From: Bacteroidales bacterium
GTDB lineage: Bacteria > Bacteroidota > Bacteroidia > Bacteroidales > PUMT01
Assembly: GCA_007133565.1 (NCBI GenBank)
Contig: SLMM01000115.1
Coordinates: 1-53,999, forward strand
Reading direction: 5' to 3'
Length of the DNA: 53,999 nucleotides
Position 1 is the first letter of the stretch. Each line of letters starts with the position of its first letter. Below, in pieces: positions 5,036-7,132 of the stretch. Made by a program: the position numbers and the translations under genes. Under the pieces are notes generated by a model. The model ran no database searches and had not been told where the DNA came from. It worked only from the letters and a program-made list of their open reading frames with translations.

Positions 5036-6193
5036 ATGGACAGCGGACGTCGCAAGTTTTTCAAATTGTTTGCTGCCGGCAGCCTGGGCGCCGGCCTCAC
5101 TCCCGTTTTCCCCGCTTCGCTTTCGGGTATTGCACCGGATCAACCGACTGAAACAAATATTGCCGATGCGCTGAAGTACCCGCGCAATGAAAATTCAATG
5201 CCGGGTAAATATCCTGGCAGGGTGGTGAGGGTTGACGATGAGAAATCGATATCAGACGGTACCATCAATGAAGAGGCGGTATACAACATGCTTGACGGAG
5301 GCATGCGGAATTTGGGAGAATGCAATGATGTTAGGGACGCCTGGAGGCAGTTTGTCAACCCGGGTGAAAAAGTAGGGATCAAAGTTAACCCTATCGGGGG
5401 AAAACTGCTTTCAACAAGCCATGCGCTTGTAAAATCTGTTATTTTACAGCTTGAGCAGTCAGGCATTGCCAGGGAAGACATAGTGATCTTTGACCGGCGC
5501 ATGCAGCAACTCAGAGATACCGGGTTTACTCCTGAAAATTATCCCGGCATTGCCATTGCGGGCACTGAGCATGTTGATGAAAGCGGCTCGTATTATGATG
5601 AGAACGGTGAACTGTACAGCCTGTCGCTGATTGACAGGGACTGGTACTACTGGGCGGACTGTGAAATGGAATATGATGATTACATGCTGCCCTTCATGGT
5701 GAACCAGGGCAAATATTCATATTTTTCCAAAATAGTGACACAGCAGCTTGACAAGATCATCAACCTCCCCATAATGAAAAATGCCGGCGCCTCGCTTACA
5801 TTGTGCCTCAAGAACCTGGGCTACGGCGTTATAACCAATACCAGCAGGCTGCATGCAACCCTGTGGGCAGAAACCTCGGCACAGGTGTGTGCCTTCCCGC
5901 CGGTCCGCGACAAGGTGGTCCTGAATATTGCCGACGGCATAAAGGGATGCTATGACGGGGGGCCGGGTGCCAACCCGCAGTTCTTCACCGATTACAAAAT
6001 GCTGCTTTTAGGTACAGACCCCGTTGCAATGGATGTTGTCGGATATGACATTATTATCGGGAAACGGATTGAAATGGGCAGGCAGTCCGGGTTTTTTGAT
6101 GTGGGGATGCAAAAGATGGAGCTTGCAGCCGGTTACGGGCTTGGGGTAGCGGACAGAGACAGGATTGACCTCAGGACAATAATCCGGAGCTGA
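5036..6193 (+). CDS. Tat-exported DUF362 domain protein
   Basis: The 385-residue protein begins MDSGRRKFFKLFAAGSLGAG, a twin-arginine (Tat) type signal with the RR pair at residues 5-6 and a following hydrophobic stretch, so it is probably exported folded. The rest reads as the DUF362 family (VGIKVNPIGG, IVIFDRR, INLPIMKNAGASLTLCLKNLGYG, DPVAMDVVGYDII). Members of this family often carry or sit beside iron-sulfur domains, but I see no ferredoxin-type cysteine cluster here. The biochemical role is not known to me. The gene is followed after 15 bases by a DUF6599-like secreted protein, and the two are probably co-transcribed. The family call is sound; function is open. Confidence 0.8.
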   Translation: MDSGRRKFFKLFAAGSLGAGLTPVFPASLSGIAPDQPTETNIADALKYPRNENSMPGKYPGRVVRVDDEKSISDGTINEEAVYNMLDGGMRNLGECNDVRDAWRQFVNPGEKVGIKVNPIGGKLLSTSHALVKSVILQLEQSGIAREDIVIFDRRMQQLRDTGFTPENYPGIAIAGTEHVDESGSYYDENGELYSLSLIDRDWYYWADCEMEYDDYMLPFMVNQGKYSYFSKIVTQQLDKIINLPIMKNAGASLTLCLKNLGYGVITNTSRLHATLWAETSAQVCAFPPVRDKVVLNIADGIKGCYDGGPGANPQFFTDYKMLLLGTDPVAMDVVGYDIIIGKRIEMGRQSGFFDVGMQKMELAAGYGLGVADRDRIDLRTIIRS

Positions 6194-6208
6194 AATAAAA
6201 TTGTGGTT

Positions 6209-7132
6209 ATGATTAAAATGTATTGCTTGATTTTTCTGTGCAGTCTCTTATTCGGGTCTTCGGGGACTGCTGTTGTTGCTAAAGGGGTTGCAGAAAGGCC
6301 GGACGGATTGTTTTTTTGTCAGCCGGAAATTGTTACAACGGCTACTCCGGACGGTAAAATAGCCGATATGCCGGTAATGTCTCCTTCCGACCTTCCCGGC
6401 GCTGTAATTTCAAGAAGTGAGATCTATGTGGGCGGTTCGTTGTGGGGACTAATAAACGGGGCTGCCGATCTTTATTATGAATACGGGTTTGACAGGATGG
6501 CGCTCCAGGATATCGGGTGGGAAGGGGAGAATTTCAGGCTTGAGCTTTACCGGATGGACAGCCCCCTTGCGGCTTACGGAATATTCTCGGTATCGGTTCA
6601 CGGTTGTGAAGAGGGCGGGCCGGTCAGCACGGGATATTGCATAAACCGGTTTCAGTACCAGCTCTATTCCGGTAATTATTACCTGTCGCTTATAAATTAT
6701 TCAGGCAGCGACAAAGCCCGTGAGCTTTCGCTGAAGATTGCAGAACTGGTTGCAAACAGGACAGGAGGGGCTGCGGCTGTGCTGCCCGGGTTGTTCGTCA
6801 GGCAGCCTTTTGAAGTTAATGCTGATGGCATAAGGCTGATCAGGGGTATTATCGGGGTAAGGAATATAGTGCCAGGTATAGCGCACCTTTTTGATGAAGC
6901 AGATGATTTTGAGATATGGCACCTGGGTATTGCCAGCGATTCCGGGCAGCAGGAGATATTGCTGCTAAAATCGCCGGGGCCGCATCCGCTGCCCGAAGCC
7001 GCTGCAATTACAGAAGGGTTGAGCATGGCAGGTTATGCCGTACGTGAAGCAGATGGCCAGGTTGTTGCAGTGATGTCTGATGATTTTGTTGAGAGCAATG
7101 AATTGCTTGACCGGATAATCATCCTGCTTTGA
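6209..7132 (+). CDS. DUF6599-like secreted protein
   Basis: The 307-residue protein starts with a signal-peptide-like hydrophobic segment (residues 3-24, ending near VVAKG). The body contains GGSLWGLINGAADLYYEYGF and FRLELYRMDSPLAAYGIFSV, a pattern I associate with DUF6599 proteins, whose function is unknown. No catalytic motif is apparent. The ATG at 6209 was preferred over a GTG two codons upstream; a further ATG at 6218 would also leave the signal peptide intact. It lies 15 bases after the DUF362 gene on the same strand, which suggests a shared exported process. The gene ends 16 bases from the 3' end of convergent miaB. Confidence 0.7.
   Translation: MIKMYCLIFLCSLLFGSSGTAVVAKGVAERPDGLFFCQPEIVTTATPDGKIADMPVMSPSDLPGAVISRSEIYVGGSLWGLINGAADLYYEYGFDRMALQDIGWEGENFRLELYRMDSPLAAYGIFSVSVHGCEEGGPVSTGYCINRFQYQLYSGNYYLSLINYSGSDKARELSLKIAELVANRTGGAAAVLPGLFVRQPFEVNADGIRLIRGIIGVRNIVPGIAHLFDEADDFEIWHLGIASDSGQQEILLLKSPGPHPLPEAAAITEGLSMAGYAVREADGQVVAVMSDDFVESNELLDRIIILL

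Follow-up and report, generated by a model that had tools for sequence, protein, structure and literature searches.

A recurrent DUF362-DUF6599 gene pair encodes a predicted exported protein of LarA-like fold and its putative partner

The closest known counterparts of the protein reported here belong to the family of LarA, the racemase that uses the nickel-pincer cofactor NPN. In LarA, two histidines are catalytic, a lysine tethers NPN and a histidine binds the nickel, and in two solved relatives, LarASp and LarABw, an asparagine takes the place of the second histidine, His174 (PMC12611868, as far as the available sections of that paper go). The accessible parts of another paper assign both DUF362 and DUF2088, the LarA domain, to Pfam clan CL0471 (PMC11770544). 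It is also the only source in which we found DUF362 alongside LarB, LarC and LarE, where it serves as an outgroup. DUF362 has further been described together with Fe-S domains (excerpts of PMC5742341 and PMC7955657). Our literature searches found no work naming DUF362 as an NPN enzyme, no mention of twin-arginine signals in studies of lactate racemase or nickel-pincer enzymes, no mention of DUF6599 under that name, and no report of an aldo-keto reductase with a Tat signal and a ferredoxin domain in Bacteroidetes.

We analyzed a stretch of 53,999 nucleotides from a Bacteroidales bacterium (contig SLMM01000115.1, assembly GCA_007133565.1), hereafter the window. Two adjacent genes on its + strand encode a DUF362 protein of 385 aa (gene 1, 5036..6193) and a DUF6599 protein of 307 aa (gene 2, 6209..7132). 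The gap between them is 15 bases with the ATG at 6209 as the start of gene 2, and 9 bases with the alternative GTG at 6203. A first-pass annotation of this DNA had described the adjacency, a twin-arginine signal and the lack of a ferredoxin-type cluster in gene 1, and a DUF6599 assignment for gene 2; all four descriptions stood up. Gene 1 matched Pfam DUF362 (PF04015) with an E value of 7e-15 and 56 bits (cut-off 24), a match that covers only profile positions 97-200 of 200, that is, the C-terminal half. Its N-terminus, MDSGRRKFFKLFAAGSLGAG, carries by eye a twin-arginine motif, RRKFFK, followed by a hydrophobic stretch (Tat signal region, 5036..5128, + strand), and TatC is encoded in the same genome. 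Neither a CxxCxxC motif in the translation, inspected by eye, nor an Fe-S domain in Pfam was found for gene 1. Gene 2 matched Pfam DUF6599 (PF20244) with an E value of 3.9e-16 and 59.6 bits (cut-off 27) and is, judged by this profile match, a divergent yet genuine member of the family; its leader looks Sec-like and has no lipobox, both by eye. The NCBIfam search returned no model for either gene. The pair is preceded by a gene for a class II tRNA synthetase, by eye aspS, and followed on the opposite strand by one of radical-SAM/TRAM type, by eye miaB. L084, the closest named relative, is 93 percent identical in DUF362 and 69 percent in DUF6599, and both genes are under purifying selection in this comparison (dN 0.033 and dS 0.52 for DUF362; dN 0.20 and dS 1.09 for DUF6599). 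DUF362 is far the more conserved of the two, with a mean column identity of 59 percent against 29 percent.

A contig scan with an alignment of the window's DUF362 subfamily gave 218 relatives, the best 80 of which were analyzed. A DUF6599 ORF lies directly downstream in 74 of these best 80, at offsets of -146 to 285 bases with starts uncorrected, and the adjacency is therefore far beyond chance. Three more loci (L111, L123, L141) have DUF6599 0.6-5.1 kb downstream, past other genes. We read these intervening genes as insertions, because each differs. In the remaining three, the contig ends 88-196 bases past the DUF362 gene. The record titles of the 80 loci name Bacteroidota and Ignavibacteria/Melioribacteraceae, with one that says no more than 'bacterium', and the scan includes the cultured relatives Prolixibacter bellariivorans and Carboxylicivirga; the pairing seen in the first-pass annotation extends beyond one genome. 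We looked for a conserved wider operon in the same 80 loci and found none: the flanking genes vary, and the next commonest neighbour (trxB by eye) occurs in 16 of the 80, many of these loci being short.

By script pattern, the RR motif is present in 77 of these best 80 of 218 orthologues, and by eye also in L103; the two orthologues without it, L157 and L160, look Sec-like. Whole-genome samples were drawn from the window's own phylum (296 genomes) and order (198 genomes), and there five of 25 evaluable orthologues (L012, L013, L014, L016, L022) have no RR motif and likewise look Sec-like. The contig scan and the genome samples are not independent, because some contigs are common to both (L157 is the contig of L012). 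TatC was present in 12/12 genomes tested, including the five whose orthologue is without the motif, which speaks against a cofactor inserted before export. Consequently, the suggestion of the first-pass annotation that the Tat signal implies a bound cofactor is weakened, and we rejected a redox function deduced from Tat alone because some orthologues have no RR motif.

DUF6599 was found in 14 of the 296 phylum genomes and in 37 of the 198 order genomes, in 35 of the latter over the cut-off. We placed 60 of the 62 DUF6599 places on a tree made with a quick method. A same-strand DUF362 or aldo-keto reductase neighbour accompanies 53 of these 60 genes: window-type DUF362 in 26, other DUF362 in 15 (type b in 11, upstream; type c in 4, downstream) and an aldo-keto reductase in 12, leaving 7 with none of these. 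Three of the 12 aldo-keto reductases were run against Pfam, and all three had a C-terminal Fer4-type match, two of them over the cut-off. Most partner genes carry the RR motif; the exceptions are L012, L013, L014, L016, L022 and L075, and the motif was also not seen in L072 and L081, whose genes are cut by contig ends.

The tree divides by partner type into three groups: a window-type group (28 rows, starred, with 2 orphans inside), an aldo-keto reductase group (15 rows, starred, 3 orphans) and a group with other DUF362 partners (17 rows, support 90, not starred, 2 orphans). Partner type changes three times on the tree, the minimum possible for four types. With orphans scored as a fifth state the tree takes 10 changes; shuffling gave 30.3 on average, and 0/200 shuffles were as low. 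The branching order inside the groups is unsure, because some long branches meet (a warning of the tool). DUF6599 gains a partner rule: its genes stand with those of predicted exported enzymes, which come in two unrelated folds. The window's own genome holds a second DUF6599 gene, between two RR-motif aldo-keto reductases (L164:6951-10313, contig C104). At another locus, tandem DUF6599 genes, one of 572 aa, stand behind a DUF362 gene (L190:5009-7635). In one metagenome contig, a DUF6599 domain is in frame with a TonB-dependent receptor (L154:4894-7353), possibly as an artefact. When the receptor portion was compared by phmmer with the ORFs at the 80 loci (best 80 of 218), L154 itself was the only match, and the fusion, a single case, was set aside as a general feature.

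Next to these gene-order results stands the predicted structure of the DUF362 protein. An AlphaFold2 model computed with 44 orthologues reached a pLDDT of 88.5 and a pTM of 0.87, with residues 1-34 unsure. In VIA-align, its eight top entries scored Z 14.2-15.7 over 208-220 residues, and the next unrelated chain scored 5.3; seven of the eight are titled lactate/malate racemase or LarA-like, the other being 4nar, and the match to 6d6z has Z 15.7 and an rmsd of 3.2 over 209 residues. The first eleven Foldseek matches were LarA-family structures and 4nar (E 8.1e-6 to 5.7e-3), the best LarA-like one at E 8.1e-6 and probability 1.00. Normalised by the length of the model, the TM-scores against LarA chains are low (0.29-0.40), because only one LarA domain is covered and the domains are displaced. 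Model residues 65-351 align, and in seven of the eight top chains the match runs up to residues 261-286 of 393-452; about 40 of the 385 residues are left past the matched region, and there is no C-terminal LarA domain. We confidently predict from this model that the DUF362 protein has the N-domain fold of LarA. For the question of function, the fold would point to a LarA-type hydride-transfer/isomerase scaffold, where the first-pass annotation had thought of a redox or binding step.

Sequence comparison adds less to this kinship. Lar_N (PF09861) was not among the Pfam matches of gene 1 up to E 1, and profile-profile comparisons of DUF362 with LarA sequences were not significant (E 0.34, 0.022 and 0.071); two of the three alignments obtained, not significant themselves, place the same His-Lys-His in register. 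The homology of DUF362 and LarA rests on the fold and the Pfam clan because the profile comparison was not significant. PDB searches with single proteins and with profiles gave nothing usable, and for DUF6599 no trustworthy PDB sequence match. Within DUF362, the profile of the window's protein matched that of types b and c with an E value of 1.1e-18 over 131 columns.

Asn249 (codon 5780..5782), Lys259 (5810..5812) and His273 (5852..5854, all + strand), together with Asp153-Arg154-Arg155 (DRR153-155), are invariant in 44 sequences of the window subfamily. Among 47 rows of other DUF362 types, which count one gene twice (L035 and L223), a K-x-H motif, a Lys ten residues after its His and a His at least 13 further on are invariant, and the place of Asn249 is His in 47/47. 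The 15 LarA-type sequences of our samples have His163, Lys173 and His189, the first spacing being ten as in DUF362. Lys259 and His273 would match the NPN-tethering Lys and the Ni-ligand His of LarA by spacing, from which the equivalence of the residues is read, and Asn249 would take the place of His174 on the same count. The D-x-T-R motif of LarA reads, by eye, I-K-V-N-P here.

The likeness to LarA comprises a predicted N-domain fold, a Lys and a His at near-equal spacing to the cofactor ligands, and an Asn for His174, as the available sections of PMC12611868 give for LarASp and LarABw. Unlike LarA, the window's protein has no C-terminal domain and no Pfam Lar_N match, has an export signal, and has DUF6599 as its neighbour in place of LarB, LarC and LarE, nine of 12 pair genomes being without LarC and LarE. 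With other DUF362 proteins it shares the C-terminal half of the PF04015 profile and the profile match to types b and c; it differs from them in the Asn that replaces the His of K-x-H, in the window-type DUF6599 group as its partner and in having no Fe-S motif.

Our model, which we lean towards, is that the pair forms one module of a periplasmic LarA-fold enzyme and a separately exported, dedicated DUF6599 partner. It builds on the family calls, the recurrence of the pair, the partner-specific DUF6599 groups, the LarA-like predicted fold and the conserved residues, all of which were computed here. The DUF362 protein would be a single-domain relative of the LarA N-domain, folded in the cytoplasm and exported by Tat. 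Its active site would centre on the invariant Asp153-Arg154-Arg155 motif together with Asn249, Lys259 and His273, and the enzyme would probably isomerise, or oxidise or reduce, a small hydroxy or sugar acid. DUF6599, exported unfolded by Sec, would come together with the folded enzyme in the periplasm and no earlier, serving there as a subunit for docking, tethering or feeding it. With one protein leaving by Sec and the other by Tat, a chaperone role for DUF6599 before export is unlikely, as far as leaders judged by eye can tell. For the pair we infer co-transcription, a physical complex, export in life, and the reaction and its substrate. The joint extracytoplasmic function proposed in the first-pass annotation has gained support from recurrence across many genera and from the partner-specific groups, with a physical interaction as its putative part. 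Counting against the module, 7 of the 60 DUF6599 genes stand without such a neighbour, of which the window-type group contains two, and some DUF362 orthologues have no Tat motif. Two uncharacterised families become a testable pair.

The predicted structure of DUF6599 bears on an alternative in which the roles are reversed. Its AlphaFold2 model (pLDDT 88.7, pTM 0.80) resembles, in residues 52-186, the extracellular domain of PknH (VIA-align Z 13.1, rmsd 2.7, 123 residues). The same N-terminal half is also like TiME (Z 10.6) and, less clearly, RseB/MucB (8.5-6.6) and TP0453 (8.2-7.6), where matches with Z near or under 8 may reflect a common arrangement, as the tool notes. In the 41 sequences compared, Ala122 and Gly124 never vary, and Gly84 (40), Pro193 (40) and Leu78 (39) hardly do. 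What DUF6599 would share with these domains is the predicted fold of residues 52-186; it differs from them in a second half that the matches leave uncovered and in the linkage of its gene to predicted exported enzymes. On this alternative, the function would centre on DUF6599, which might be a periplasmic sensor or a lipid or ligand binder, and the exported enzyme would have the accessory task of modifying the ligand of DUF6599. DUF6599 is indeed the constant member while the enzyme varies, the PknH, TiME, RseB/MucB and TP0453 likenesses suit such a role, and there is one fusion of DUF6599 with a TonB-dependent receptor. However, DUF362 is the far more conserved protein, the receptor fusion is one metagenome contig and may be an artefact, and the fold matches carry no functional information, those with Z near or under 8 possibly reflecting a common arrangement. 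We regard this alternative as unlikely, if worth keeping in mind.

DUF362 genes of other kinds occur at loci for NPN synthesis. DUF362 was found at 11 of 41 LarC loci in the order and phylum samples, ten times directly beside LarC; the LarC fragments of G311 and G437 were left out of the 41. The order sample has an RR-motif DUF362 directly beside LarC at 8 of 22 loci (L258, L259, L261, L262, L264, L265, L266, L275), and one at L267, about 5 kb from LarC, was not counted. The phylum sample has DUF362 at 3 of 19 LarC loci. In two of these, G141 and G145, a longer DUF362 gene immediately precedes LarC, LarE and LarB, among apparent polysaccharide genes. In the third, G066, DUF362 is followed by two ferredoxin-type genes with weak likeness to NapH and NapG, and these by LarC, LarE and LarB; the DUF362 leader, ERKDFLK, is without RR. 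The three phylum loci are L221, L222 and L223 (two genes off in L223), and most of the 11 have LarE and/or LarB close. A profile from 15 sequences found no LarA at the DUF362-LarC loci at E up to 1e-10. DUF362 occurs in 18 of 20 LarC genomes versus 26 of 276 others in the phylum sample, and in 21 of 24 versus 76 of 174 in the order sample, a co-occurrence that shared lifestyle or ancestry may partly explain. Since DUF362 genes lie at 11 of the 41 LarC loci, part of DUF362 may be NPN enzymes, and the genes beside LarC at L258, L259, L261, L262, L264-L266, L275 and L221-L223 are candidates. These results indicate DUF362 as a family of LarA-like proteins, some encoded beside nickel-pincer cofactor genes without a recognisable neighbouring LarA. 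In genome G119, which had no DUF362 and no Lar_N match, aldo-keto reductases (L227:3-986 and L227:4674-5645) flank a LarC-LarE-LarB operon.

Tentatively, DUF362 might be a sister family of LarA that includes exported enzymes with a Lys-tethered nucleotide cofactor, a joint reading to which we give little weight. An equally doubtful part of it is that the cofactor would be NPN in the members beside LarB, LarC and LarE, and in the window subfamily a scavenged NPN or another cofactor held by Lys and His and served by DUF6599. If true, the DUF362 members beside LarBCE would be extracytoplasmic nickel-pincer enzymes; to our knowledge, none is known so far.

For the window subfamily itself, a stricter version would make the DUF362 protein a periplasmic NPN racemase or epimerase, with NPN tethered by Lys259 and nickel bound by His273, loaded in the cytoplasm ahead of Tat export. 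The predicted LarA-like fold, the kept Lys and His, the DUF362 genes at 11 of 41 LarC loci and the Asn for the second His found in NPN enzymes (available sections of PMC12611868) are consistent with it. Moreover, LarC, LarB and LarE lie together (L224:7770-10578, contig C65) in the window's own genome, which is 91 percent complete and gave no Lar_N match in a profile search, and the pair is somewhat commoner in LarC genomes of the phylum sample (3 of 20 versus 9 of 276, Fisher p 0.039). Against it, LarC, which is over the cut-off in 20 of 296 phylum genomes, is so in just three of the 12 with the pair (G000, G014, G172), and LarE in the same three; the nine LarC-less pair genomes have a listed completeness of 99-100 percent. 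Of the 15 pair genomes in the order sample, two have LarC, namely G000 and G333, which belong to the window's genus. The orthologues without RR, I-K-V-N-P in place of D-x-T-R (by eye) and the absent LarA C-domain also speak against this version. LarC absence alone does not exclude every LarA-like enzyme, because five of the nine LarC-less pair genomes (G031, G035, G124, G176, G263) encode Lar_N proteins that carry the complete residue set. Lar_N proteins with His-Lys-His were seen at L212, L214, L215, L217 and L218, in genomes without LarC over the cut-off. Because LarC and LarE are missing in nine of 12 sampled pair genomes and some orthologues have no Tat motif, NPN is probably not the cofactor of the window subfamily, and we consider the racemase or epimerase version distinctly improbable.

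That gene order is merely stable, without shared function, is the least credible explanation: same-strand adjacency in close relatives could be inherited order, but the flanks vary while the pair is kept (next neighbour in 16 of the best 80 of 218, many loci being short), the three loci with other genes between still have DUF6599 nearby, and DUF6599 proteins outside the window-type group have other DUF362 types and aldo-keto reductases as partners.

Elsewhere in the window, at 775-2560, an IF-2B family gene adjoins a class II aldolase gene; it looks like mtnA, and we presume that the two are perhaps a methylthioribose salvage pair.
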